From: Cryobacterium sinapicolor
GTDB taxonomy: Bacteria > Actinomycetota > Actinomycetes > Actinomycetales > Microbacteriaceae
Direction of reading: 5' to 3'
Length of the DNA stretch: 64,000 nucleotides
NCBI RefSeq assembly: GCF_004403465.1
Contig: NZ_SOGQ01000050.1
Span: forward strand, 1 to 64,000
Part shown: positions 22,864-25,725 of the stretch, piece by piece
Numbering within the stretch: position 1 is the stretch's first letter
Layout: every line of letters starts with the position of its first letter
Notes under the pieces: model-generated
What the model was told of the DNA's origin: nothing
What the model saw: the letters and a program-made list of their open reading frames with translations, nothing else
Database searches by the model: none
Made by a program: the position numbers and the translations under genes

Positions 22864-24936
22864 GTGGCATCGAAACCCGCTGCAGACATTATTGAAAGTA
22901 TCGGAGGGGCCGAAAACGTCGTCGGCCTCACCCACTGTGCCACCCGGCTGCGCTTCACGTTAAAGGATGCATCGGGGATCGACCAGGCAGCCGTCGAGGC
23001 GTTGCCTTTGGTTCTCGGCGCCGTTCCGCAGTCCGGCGATCGGTACCAGATCGTCATTGGCGGAGCGGTAGAGACCGTCTACAACGACATTATGGCGCTG
23101 CCCGCGATGAAGAAGCACGCGGGCGACCACCACACCGGTGACAGCATCGACGAGGTCAAGGCCGCGGAACGTTCGAAGGGCCCGCGCGGGAAGTTCTCCG
23201 GGCTGGACACGTTCTTCGAGGTGCTGTCCGACTCCTTCCGCCCGATCCTTGGGGCGCTCCTCGGAGCATCCTTGTTCATCACGTTCATGGCCCTGATGGC
23301 GACCCTTGGGGTCATCCCCTCATGGAACGCACCGGGCGTCACCCTCGACCCGTCCTGGGCATTCATCAACCTGATGTGGCAGGGCGTTTTCGTCTTCCTG
23401 CCTTTGATGGTCGCCTACAACGCCTCCAAGCGGCTCGGCGCTGACCCCTGGGTCGGCTTCGGCATCATGGCCGTCGTCATGCTCCCCGGCTTCAACGCGC
23501 TGGGACTCACCGACGGAGCAGAGACCGTCTTCGGCGGCAAGGCAGCAGTCGTGCAGATCTTCGGGCTGCCGCTGACCGTCACCGACTACAGCTCCCAGGT
23601 GTTCCCGCCGCTGCTCATGGCGGTCGTCCTCGGCCTGCTGACGAAGTACCTGAAGAAGATCATTCCGTCCAGCGTTCAGCTGATCTTCGTGCCGTTCCTC
23701 AGCATGCTCATCATGATCCCGCTGACCGCCTTCCTGATCGGTCCGATGGGCGTGTACGGCGGTGCCGGTCTTGGTAACTTCCTGAAGTCGATCAACGACT
23801 TCTCGCCGTTCATCTTCGCGGTCGTCATCCCGCTCGCCTACCCGTTCATGGTTCCTCTCGGCCTGCACTGGCCGCTGAACGCGATCATGCTGCTCAACAT
23901 CCAGTCCCTCGGCTATGACTTCATCCAGGGCCCCATGGGCGCCTGGAACTTCGCGTGCTTCGGCGCGACCGCCGGCGTGCTGTTCCTGTCGATCCGCGAA
24001 AAGGACCGCCTGATGAAGCAGACGGCGACGGGTGCACTCGCGGCCGGCCTCCTGGGTGGTATCTCTGAACCGTCGCTGTACGGCATCCACCTGCGGTTCA
24101 AGCGCATCTACCCACGGATGCTCGTGGGCTGCCTCGTCGGTGGCGTCATCATCGGCCTCGGCGGCGGCGTGAAGACCAGCGCCTTCGTCTTCACCTCGCT
24201 GTTGACCATCCCCGCGTTCGACAACATCCCGCTGTACGCGGGCGCTGTCGCCGCGTCGTTCTTCACCGCGATGATCCTCGTGATCCTCTCCGGCTACAAG
24301 ACGCCCGAGCAGAAGGCGGAATTCGCCGCGGCTCTCTCCGCCGAAACCGCTGTGAGCGACGAGGCAGCACCTGCCTCTGACATCGCGGCGCCGGGCGTTG
24401 CCGGTGCGTCAAGCACGGGCACGGGCACGGGAACAGCGACCGCAGTCGCGACCGCAACGTCGACCGCAACCGCGACGGTTCTGGCCACGATCGGCTCACC
24501 CGTCGCCGGCATCGTCGTTCCGCTCGCCGACGTGCCGGACCCCGTGTTCAGCAAGGGAATTGTCGGGCTCGGCGTCGGAATCGATCCGACCGAGGACACC
24601 GTGTACGCACCTGGAGCCGGCAAGGTGCTAGTCGCTCAGGCGACCGGCCACGCCTTCGGTCTGCGCCTCGACAACGGTGTTGAAATGCTCATTCACGTGG
24701 GCATCGACACCGTGAACCTCGCGGGCAAGGGCTTCGAGGTCAAGGTGGCCGCGGGCGACCGGGTGGAGGCAGGCACTCCCCTGGTGACCTTCGACCGCAA
24801 GGTGATCGAGGATGCCGGCTACTCGCTGGTCACCCCGGTGCTCGTGACGAACCCCAAGAAGTTCGGATCGGTCGACCAGGCGGCGTCTGGCCAGGTAGAG
24901 GTCGGAAGCCCTCTGATCACGGTCTCCGCCAAGTAG
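22864..24936 (+). CDS. bglF: PTS beta-glucoside-type EIIBCA
   Basis: This 690-aa membrane permease imports and phosphorylates a sugar with phosphoenolpyruvate. Order: EIIB (residues 1-85, phospho-Cys in GLTHCATRLRFTLKDASGID), EIIC (about 105-480, ten or so helices, with GGISEPSLYGIHLRFKRIYP), an Ala/Thr/Gly-repeat linker (about 500-540) and EIIA (IGSPVAGIVVPL to the end, phospho-His in MLIHVGIDTVNL). The B-C-A order is that of beta-glucoside/sucrose/trehalose enzymes; the exact sugar is uncertain. GTG 22864 has AAGGAG at proper distance. A strong terminator follows directly, so it is monocistronic, and no glycosidase gene is adjacent. Confidence 0.88.
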   Translation: MASKPAADIIESIGGAENVVGLTHCATRLRFTLKDASGIDQAAVEALPLVLGAVPQSGDRYQIVIGGAVETVYNDIMALPAMKKHAGDHHTGDSIDEVKAAERSKGPRGKFSGLDTFFEVLSDSFRPILGALLGASLFITFMALMATLGVIPSWNAPGVTLDPSWAFINLMWQGVFVFLPLMVAYNASKRLGADPWVGFGIMAVVMLPGFNALGLTDGAETVFGGKAAVVQIFGLPLTVTDYSSQVFPPLLMAVVLGLLTKYLKKIIPSSVQLIFVPFLSMLIMIPLTAFLIGPMGVYGGAGLGNFLKSINDFSPFIFAVVIPLAYPFMVPLGLHWPLNAIMLLNIQSLGYDFIQGPMGAWNFACFGATAGVLFLSIREKDRLMKQTATGALAAGLLGGISEPSLYGIHLRFKRIYPRMLVGCLVGGVIIGLGGGVKTSAFVFTSLLTIPAFDNIPLYAGAVAASFFTAMILVILSGYKTPEQKAEFAAALSAETAVSDEAAPASDIAAPGVAGASSTGTGTGTATAVATATSTATATVLATIGSPVAGIVVPLADVPDPVFSKGIVGLGVGIDPTEDTVYAPGAGKVLVAQATGHAFGLRLDNGVEMLIHVGIDTVNLAGKGFEVKVAAGDRVEAGTPLVTFDRKVIEDAGYSLVTPVLVTNPKKFGSVDQAASGQVEVGSPLITVSAK

Positions 24937-24950
24937 GACACCCAAGTCAA

Positions 24951-24983
24951 AAGGTGGGCAGAGATTCTCTGCCCACCTTTTTT
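24951..24983 (+). terminator. Rho-independent terminator of the PTS gene
   Basis: AAGGTGGGCAGAGA pairs with TCTCTGCCCACCTT around a short TT loop and is followed by a T run (24976-24983). It starts 15 bases after the PTS stop codon. The mirror A run upstream could also serve the minus strand. Confidence 0.9.
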
Positions 24984-24995
24984 CTGCGTGCACTT

Positions 24996-25011
24996 ATACT
25001 CCAGGGGGTAT
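24996..25011. promoter_or_regulatory. CsoR-type palindrome
   Basis: ATACTCCA-GGGGGTAT is an inverted repeat matching at 6 of 8 pairs, of the ATACCCC..GGGGTAT type bound by CsoR/CstR-family copper or persulfide sensors in actinobacteria and firmicutes. It lies 40 bases upstream of a small Cys-rich gene. Identification is by motif resemblance only. Confidence 0.4.
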
Positions 25012-25051
25012 GTTCTCATCGATTAGATAGATCAGCAAAGAGGATCACCCT

Positions 25052-25171
25052 GTGCTGATCACGTGTTCACACTGCACGATGGCAACTTGGGACGGTTGTG
25101 GCCAGCACATCGTGAACGCGCTTTACGGAGTGGCGGAGTCCGATCGTTGCACGTGCCGTAACGGCGGCTGA
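25052..25171 (+). CDS. 39-residue Cys-rich small protein
   Basis: GTG 25052 opens a 39-codon frame that reads MLITCSHCTMATWDGCGQHI, then VNALYGVAESDRCTC and RNGG, ending at TGA 25169-25171. AGAGGA lies seven to twelve bases upstream. A CxxC pair, a CGxH and a CxC give a possible zinc- or copper-binding site; proteins of this pattern (TWxGCGxH, C-terminal CxC) occur in many actinobacteria, as far as I recall without an assigned function. The CsoR-like palindrome upstream suggests a metal or sulfur stress role. It is short, so chance is not excluded, but the Cys/His pattern is far from random. Confidence 0.62.
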   Translation: MLITCSHCTMATWDGCGQHIVNALYGVAESDRCTCRNGG

Positions 25172-25278
25172 CGAGCCCGCGGACCTGCACTGGACATCCG
25201 TTCTGAGCGCCAGAACCCAACAGGCCTTGGAACAGCCGGTGATCGGTGAGCCCTTCGACGGAATCGACGTTCCCGTGG

Positions 25279-25725
25279 TCAACGAACGGGCGGTTCCCCG
25301 GTGAGAGGTCGTCGCCCGAGCGGGCTTTGAAACCGAATCAGGTAGCCGTCCGGATCGGTGACCAGGAACTGACGCACACCGACTTCCTCGTCGTCGACGC
25401 GGTACCACTTCGACTCGGGCTGCATGAACAGAGAGTCGCCGGCCGCTCGCAATGCCGACAGGATCGAATCGACGTCGGACACGGCCACCTGGAAGTTCAC
25501 TCCGCGGCCGTATGGGGTATCGAGTGGCGCCGTGATCCAGTTCCTACCGGTGCCCGCCTGTTCCAGCATCACGTGCGCGGATCCCCGTGTGATGTACGCG
25601 AAGCCGTCATCCGGACGATCGTAGCGAATCGTGAATCCACACAGGTCGCACCAAAACGCAATGCTGTCGGCGAGATTCCGCACCAGAAGTTCGGGCACCA
25701 GCGCTGGATCTGTTCCCGTTGTCAT
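25279..25725 (-). CDS. Bleomycin-resistance/glyoxalase-type VOC protein
   Basis: The 148-aa protein has the bleomycin-resistance-like VOC layout: PALVPELLVRNLADSIAFWC, DLCGFTIRYDRPDDGFAYIT, the DTPYGRGVNFQVAVSDVDSI repeat start and the ending VRQFLVTDPDGYLIRFQSPL. Members bind drugs or act as metal-dependent lyases/dioxygenases; the substrate here is unknown. ATG 25725 is used. Its 3' end overlaps by 26 bases a plus-strand coding relic (25167-25304). Confidence 0.8.
   Translation of the reverse strand: MTTGTDPALVPELLVRNLADSIAFWCDLCGFTIRYDRPDDGFAYITRGSAHVMLEQAGTGRNWITAPLDTPYGRGVNFQVAVSDVDSILSALRAAGDSLFMQPESKWYRVDDEEVGVRQFLVTDPDGYLIRFQSPLGRRPLTGEPPVR

Follow-up and report, generated by a model that had tools for sequence, protein, structure and literature searches.

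A small Cys/His protein gene in a predicted CstR-type sulfane-sulfur regulon of Cryobacterium sinapicolor

The 39-residue gene and its surroundings

The window, that is, the whole stretch of 64,000 nucleotides of Cryobacterium sinapicolor DNA analysed here, contains a short frame that begins with GTG, ends with TGA (25169-25171) and, according to its ORF translation, encodes the 39-residue protein MLITCSHCTMATWDGCGQHIVNALYGVAESDRCTCRNGG. Its motifs are C5xxC8, C16-G-x-H19 and C34xC36. An initial annotation, made from the letters of the DNA, had pointed to this frame with its ribosome site and motifs and to a palindrome ahead of it resembling CsoR/CstR operators, and both are in place (Table 1); sites of the same class precede all three paralogues of the gene in this genome. 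The palindrome lies 40 nt from the GTG codon. In the window, the Cys/His pattern occurs in 1 of the 626 ORFs of at least 30 aa, namely the 39-aa frame, and it is absent from 20 mononucleotide shuffles.

Table 1. Features of the 39-residue gene and its flanks in the window
Feature	Position	Strand	Remarks
Terminator-like hairpin and U-run	24949..24981	+	3′ of the upstream gene (22864-24936), PTS permease-like by eye
CstR-type operator ATACTCCAGGGGGTAT	24996..25011		Predicted site; 1 mismatch from ATACCCC-NN-GGGGTAT
Probable -10 element TATGTT	25009..25014	+	Made by the 3′ arm of the operator
RBS-like AAGAGGA	25038..25044	+	7 nt 5′ of the GTG; orthologues purine-rich at the same place
Ancestral-start relic CTG TGC TGA	25050..25058	+	ATG/GTG TGC TAC in five orthologues, by eye
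39-aa Cys/His gene	25052..25171	+	GTG start in the rescued frame, without the family's Cys2
DUF4395 remnant EQPVIGEPFDGIDVPVVNERAVPR, then stop	25230..25304	+	By-eye likeness to intact DUF4395 N-termini (L042, L187)
Glyoxalase-domain gene	25279..25725	-	

The RNA of positions 24945-24990 is predicted to fold with -26.9 kcal/mol (z -7.0), and none of 200 shuffles folds as well; the hairpin is absent from the list of a simple terminator scan. Since this strong hairpin closes the upstream gene, the 39-aa gene should need a promoter of its own. A consensus promoter scan found none at this site. Throughout, the names PTS, CoA-disulfide reductase, persulfide dioxygenase (PDO) and SQR were given by eye or from domains, with no functional model behind them.

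The simplest alternative is that a chance ORF happens to stand beside a chance palindrome. When the window alone was searched with up to three mismatches, an uninformative setting, one palindrome match was found versus 1.16 expected in shuffles, which is no more than chance provides. Nevertheless, the gene has homologues with a conserved spacing, and the same operator stands before all three paralogues, so that coincidence is vanishingly improbable for this locus and is refuted for the family. The 39-residue gene is real and is a member of a widespread, mostly unannotated family.

A widespread family with a fixed Cys/His spacing

A lack of conserved homologues had been named as a ground for rejecting the initial reading, but homologues are abundant. 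In a set of 60 genomes (the C. sinapicolor genome and 59 relatives), 44 contain family matches at E <= 0.01, in 82 places, three of them in C. sinapicolor itself; two of the 82 (G013:C45 and G012:C9, E 0.004-0.009) are spurious frames, left out of the counts where so indicated. Across the phylum, 36 of 296 genomes match the family profile, while a scan of named genomes confirmed at least 582 of at least 593 stretches. The best 80 of these latter stretches come from Cryobacterium, Microbacterium, Leucobacter, Demequina, Arthrobacter, freshwater actinobacteria and others. C. cheniae is the closest named relative among the matches listed. A few of the best 80 loci are on metagenome-assembled genomes (MAGs) with unchecked labels of Chloroflexi or Acidobacteria; for instance, members L215, L216, L260 and L259 are on MAG contigs labelled Chloroflexi/Candidatus Limnocylindrus, and Acidobacteria. 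Pairwise dN/dS values among six orthologues range from about 0.01 to 0.54, as expected under purifying selection.

The gene had also been expected to escape gene callers, and its relatives commonly do: of the 78 plasmid records that match the family, 40 were listed, and 37 of these have no annotated feature under the match, in a gene table that is incomplete. Domain models do not describe the family either. No match of weight to Pfam or NCBIfam was obtained for 41 members; a hit to Pfam DUF5651 (E 0.015, below the cut-off of that model) was discarded as noise. The search for similar sequences in the PDB gave no match of weight, the only one (E 0.045) being to a short stretch of an unrelated protein. 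In the open-licence literature searched, including searches for its peptide motifs, the small family is undescribed.

The proteins share a strict architecture. In 151 of 153 distinct proteins, a Met-Cys start is followed by the exact spacing M-C-x4-C-x2-C-x7-C-G-x-H-x13-C, and all these 151 have Cys or His as their final ligand: CxC in 97, CxxH in 49, CxxxH in 4 and CxxC/CxxxC in 1. The Met-Cys start is to be read with the manner in which starts were chosen, as the start picker used for the relatives favoured starts followed by Cys, while in the 80 named loci the start was taken from the tblastn match; of the 590 other genes called in the named loci, 11 have Cys directly after Met. C5, C8, C16, H19, C34 and C36 of the window protein align with the core C-x2-C-x7-C-G-x-H-x13-C-x1-3-[C/H], to which it thus conforms. 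A TWxGCGxH motif is strongly conserved as well. In addition, 52 of the 153 proteins, 46 of which are not of the CxC type, have a GGFFARLFGR-like tail; the short FFARLFGR-like C-terminus of CxxH-type members (e.g., L037:6677-6841) is hydrophobic and basic. No export signal was seen by eye in the product.

Interchange of Cys and His at one position is typical of a metal ligand, and Met-Cys starts normally lose their Met. Cys2 would thus be a free N-terminal cysteine in most members. A fold model of the C. cheniae orthologue, built from 77 sequences, places the CxxC between two strands (residues 3-6 and 13-16) and starts a short helix (22-25) just after the CGxH (pLDDT 79.5, pTM 0.48). Foldseek gave no match at E <= 0.001 with this model, and none of 40 chains reached Z >= 2. 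The family is probably a one-zinc beta-hairpin/helix finger with C7, C10, C18 and H21 (family numbering) as ligands, an assignment that is a reading of spacing and predicted secondary structure because the pTM is 0.48 and the PDB holds no match of weight. Such a site would leave C2, C35 and C/H37 free, which would suit a role in carrying sulfur. As far as the initial annotation proposed metal binding by the peptide, this is possible, and the metal would likely be a structural zinc.

The copy in the window departs from this architecture at its N-terminus, which the initial annotation had no means of noticing. Met-Cys is missing from only two of the 153 distinct proteins, the window copy and that on G018:C48; the latter (L116) is a second worn paralogue, with an operator site 46 nt upstream. 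In the window, the start codon has been changed and 4 nt have been lost, so that the ancestral frame stops at once, and a GTG two bases further on restores the frame without Cys2. Downstream, the sole partner-like neighbour is the DUF4395 remnant, which, as a 44-residue piece, gave no match to Pfam. DUF4395 genes are intact in L042 (2007-2582) and L187 (6247-6813) and appear by eye to be shortened in L044 and L047, which suggests repeated erosion of the operon within this clade.

These changes raise the question of whether this copy is a pseudogene, with a frame that stayed open by chance after the loss of the start and the 4-nt deletion. Besides the relic of the start, the missing Met-Cys and the DUF4395 remnant, an excess of replacements favours this reading: by a hand partition of pairwise counts, with small numbers, about 6 replacement and 6 silent changes fall on the window branch, compared with 1 and 12 for two sister branches (p 0.03). 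By contrast, the frame, the ribosome site, the operator and the remaining Cys/His positions are all intact, and the replacements are still fewer than the neutral expectation (p 0.03). The chances of a pseudogene are therefore judged to be nearly even, though slightly short of it. More broadly, as Cys2 has been lost and the downstream partner gene is a remnant, the window copy is probably a paralogue that is diverging or decaying. Of the three in this genome it is the least suitable for study, because its N-terminal Cys is missing and it may be decaying; intact paralogues are on G000:C85 and C16.

Operators, regulators and neighbouring genes

In contrast to the search of the window alone, searches at the level of genomes with at most one mismatch separate the operator from its background. 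The 3.53-Mb genome of C. sinapicolor has 7 sites versus 1 for a reversed control pattern, and the 60 genomes have 264 versus 6. Three of the seven sites stand 35-40 nt 5′ of the three family paralogues, a coincidence of about 3e-11 under a simple uniform expectation. Others precede a Pyr_redox-rhodanese fusion, an MFS gene and a thioredoxin gene, whereas the seventh, on C65, falls within a long reading frame and is probably due to chance. Among the 60 genomes, 66 of the 82 family places, a total that includes the two spurious frames, have the operator (at most one mismatch) no more than 150 nt away. Half of the 14 true members without an operator lie, by coordinates, behind a co-directional gene that has one (L050, L051, L052, L054, L106, L118 and L140). 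In the named genomes, the operator is adjacent in only 23 of 80 loci, these being the best 80 of at least 593 stretches.

The operator is placed where it could control transcription. Its median position is 37 nt 5′ of the family start, and 67 of the 87 distinct operators ahead of family members read TAxxxT across their last three bases and the next three (p 2e-19 versus a rate of 0.3, with relatedness ignored; the relatives are mostly of one genus, and hence p values are not independent). The operator thus overlaps the likely -10 element.

The genes around these operators belong chiefly to sulfur metabolism. In C. sinapicolor, an operator precedes a CoA-disulfide-reductase-like Pyr_redox-rhodanese fusion that is followed by the C-A-C regulator gene described below, and a rhodanese lipoprotein-like gene is found directly 3′ of one of the small genes, with a TauE gene nearby. 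In other loci, 136 distinct operator contexts were collected, 66 of them before family members; by eye, the remaining 70 include regulators, Pyr_redox-rhodanese fusions, rhodanese lipoproteins, thioredoxins, PDO-like metallo-beta-lactamases and an SQR-like gene, with some unassigned. Neighbours of the kind that had been suggested for a search, rhodaneses and csoR-type genes among them, were likewise recovered with Pfam. Rhodanese domains are present in 12 of 91, 5 of 99 and 27 of 106 near genes in three sets, proportions that are biased, as 91 of 119 and 99 of 127 frames were submitted for the first two sets and the third was taken from the 150 nearest (at least 80 aa) of 239 frames, with others dropped by eye. 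The set of 106 also has Pyr_redox_2 in 15, Lactamase_B in 8, PF02583 in 7 and DUF4395 in 5. In 106 far genes from these loci there is at most one occurrence each of rhodanese, Lactamase_B, PF02583 and DUF4395, as these families are absent from the 25 shown, and Pyr_redox_2 occurs twice; the control genes were drawn at random (106 of 191) and encode shorter proteins (mean 231 versus 332 aa). All these counts come from a simple ORF picker, whose spurious frames dilute them, and fusion proteins are scored under both Rhodanese and Pyr_redox.

The regulators linked to the family point in the same direction. In the CsoR family (PF02583), CsoR binds copper through a His at the middle position of a triad, and CstR is recognised by the lack of this His. 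PF02583 genes are found in 59 of the 60 genomes, and one lies within 12 kb of 26 family places (within 5 kb of 24 of the 82). The 20 nearest linked genes within 12 kb comprise 17 with a C-A-C triad, 2 with C-G-C and 1 with C-T-C, but none with C-H-C; the 27 C-H-C genes classed by sequence are all at unlinked loci. A similar trend is observed in the named genomes, where 33 linked ORFs detected by pattern, some on near-duplicate contigs, have 16 C-A-C, 9 C-G-C, 7 C-S-C and 1 C-N-C triads. The C. sinapicolor genome has one C-A-C regulator gene (C67), on another contig than the window, and its product has two cysteines spaced by 29 and lacks His at the metal position between them.

The co-occurrence of operator and family is also close. 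Operator sites are present in 43 of the 44 genomes with the family and absent from 12 of the 16 without it, although most of these genomes belong to one genus and do not count as independent cases. The ten family-less genomes that have a high-scoring regulator only, or none, are all devoid of operators; the regulator class per genome is a score rank in this comparison, not assigned by sequence in each case, and those high-scoring regulators that were classed by sequence are C-H-C. Two genomes fit less well: in G052, the family and two operator sites occur without a low-scoring (CstR-class) regulator, and G049 has the family, yet neither an operator site nor such a regulator. The members L115 (G052:C103) and L053 (G049:C19) are those that the regulon model leaves unexplained. 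Overall, the linkage of regulator and family is partial, with operators at 23 of 80 loci in the named set and regulators within 5 kb of 24 of 82 places.

An alternative that has to be weighed here is a metallothionein-like peptide that buffers copper or another soft metal under a copper-responsive repressor of the CsoR/RicR type. The product is Cys-rich, and copper CsoR/RicR sites are similar palindromes, a likeness noted in the part of the Streptomyces coelicolor report considered (PMC7533328). Moreover, in the set of 99 near genes, multicopper oxidase domains are found in up to 3 and CueP in 1, and C. sinapicolor has a C-H-H regulator gene (C56) with ATACCCC-TTG-GGGGTAT upstream, that is, the operator arms with one more spacer base. 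Because only this base separates the two sites, cross-control is possible. The commonest neighbour families listed include no copper exporter or chaperone. Against copper stand the absence of C-H-C from the 20 nearest linked regulators, the lack of operators in the ten family-less genomes just described and the predominance of sulfur enzymes among the neighbours. In addition, no metallothionein model was listed for the 41 members at E <= 1, and a single fixed ligand spacing is, from general knowledge, more finger- than metallothionein-like. The copper/CsoR reading was dropped on the regulator triads, the neighbours and the genome co-occurrence, and is now considered quite unlikely. Thus, of the metal- or persulfide-handling module proposed initially, the persulfide half is supported by the CstR-type regulators and the sulfur-enzyme neighbours, and a copper/CsoR module is not supported. 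Judged from sequence, the family appears to be induced by reactive (persulfide) sulfur and not by copper. The C-H-H gene itself, at about 5469-5787 of L120 (G000:C56:145000-156000), may be a copper regulator.

Proposed role and known systems

The reading we favour, and hold to be moderately likely, is that the small Cys/His gene, one of three paralogues in its genome, is part of a CstR-type sulfane-sulfur regulon and that its product is a sulfur carrier or buffer. In its reduced state, the CstR-type repressor would sit on the palindrome, cover the -10 element and block transcription. By analogy with the published case, persulfide or polysulfide would then modify the two cysteines of the repressor and free the promoter. 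The product would be a zinc-finger-like scaffold presenting the thiols of Cys2 and of a C-terminal Cys-X-Cys or Cys-X-X-His, and may take up, carry or buffer sulfane sulfur as it moves between rhodanese, CoA-disulfide reductase, persulfide dioxygenase and thioredoxin.

Perhaps the product does not handle sulfur itself, and is instead a structural zinc-finger accessory subunit or a regulator of a partner enzyme, such as the CoA-disulfide-reductase-rhodanese. The fixed Cys/His spacing, with Cys and His interchanging at the last ligand, and the conserved TWxGCGxH motif would fit such a role, and Pyr_redox-rhodanese genes adjoin the small gene in many loci. Nevertheless, some members, such as the window copy and G000:C16, are solitary genes with an operator of their own, the neighbours vary, and C2 and C35 are conserved beyond the needs of one four-ligand zinc site. 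An accessory role is therefore regarded as rather unlikely, and a carrier or buffer is preferred.

A bolder form of the carrier reading is that these proteins are a new class of sulfane-sulfur carrier: zinc-finger proteins of about 37-60 residues in which a processed N-terminal cysteine and a C-terminal Cys-X-Cys or Cys-X-X-His shuttle persulfide sulfur within the CstR regulon of hundreds of Actinomycetota. Such a class, which would have been overlooked because its members are too short for annotation, is put forward tentatively, as a speculative possibility. It would not stand in for TusA, which is found in 31 of the 60 genomes (27 over the cut-off), that of C. sinapicolor included; the idea of the family as a TusA replacement is thus not supported. 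DsrE_2 gave no match in the C. sinapicolor genome. In four places (G008:C31, G026:C80, G045:C5 and G048:C251), TusA domains are part of frames of 826-909 codons about 1.8-2.0 kb from an operator site, which suggests that large TusA-containing fusions belong to the same regulon.

Persulfide homeostasis is known through few enzymes and sensors. If the carrier reading is true, a tiny, widespread and mostly unannotated co-regulated protein would be a missing part of the persulfide circuit, although the value of the window copy itself is lower because it is probably degenerate. The case also illustrates how operators can expose small genes skipped by annotation.

Very small Cys-rich products behind the operator of a CsoR paralogue have a precedent in mycobacterial MymT, and other prokaryotic metallothioneins are of the same kind. 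These, however, are copper-controlled and differently spaced, and no metallothionein model is listed for the family. In treble-clef and CCCH zinc fingers, a CxxC is at the turn of a beta-hairpin and a CxxH at the start of a helix, as predicted here, but they have no sequence or fold match of weight to the family.

The regulon is of a known kind, and it is the small protein that is undescribed in the open-licence literature searched. CstR of Staphylococcus aureus, a CsoR-family repressor that senses sulfane sulfur, governs a regulon of the same type. YrkD of Bacillus licheniformis is, according to the part of its report considered, another such repressor and controls genes for rhodanese, PDO, TauE and thioredoxin, as here (PMC9918477). 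In these CstR regulons, TusA/DsrE-type proteins are the proposed sulfur carriers, whereas the recurrent small product here is the Cys/His family.

The closest parallel is the S. coelicolor circuit of ScCsoR (SCO0620), ScPDO, a rhodanese and a sulfite transporter. In the part of that report considered (PMC7533328), ScCsoR binds the 16-bp ATACC-N6-GGTAT sites of its own circuit, which are of the same class as those described here, and is released by polysulfide; its cysteines, Cys37 and Cys66, are 29 apart, as in the regulators here. That part of the report does not mention a small Cys/His protein. Eight listed genomes of family f21 (presumed Streptomyces), which is of the same class as C. sinapicolor, gave no match in the profile search, which may explain why the Streptomyces circuit was described without one. 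Targets of the persulfide dioxygenase, rhodanese and TauE types are common to both regulons, and to these the regulon described here adds the small protein, the Pyr_redox-rhodanese fusion, thioredoxin, MFS and DUF4395.
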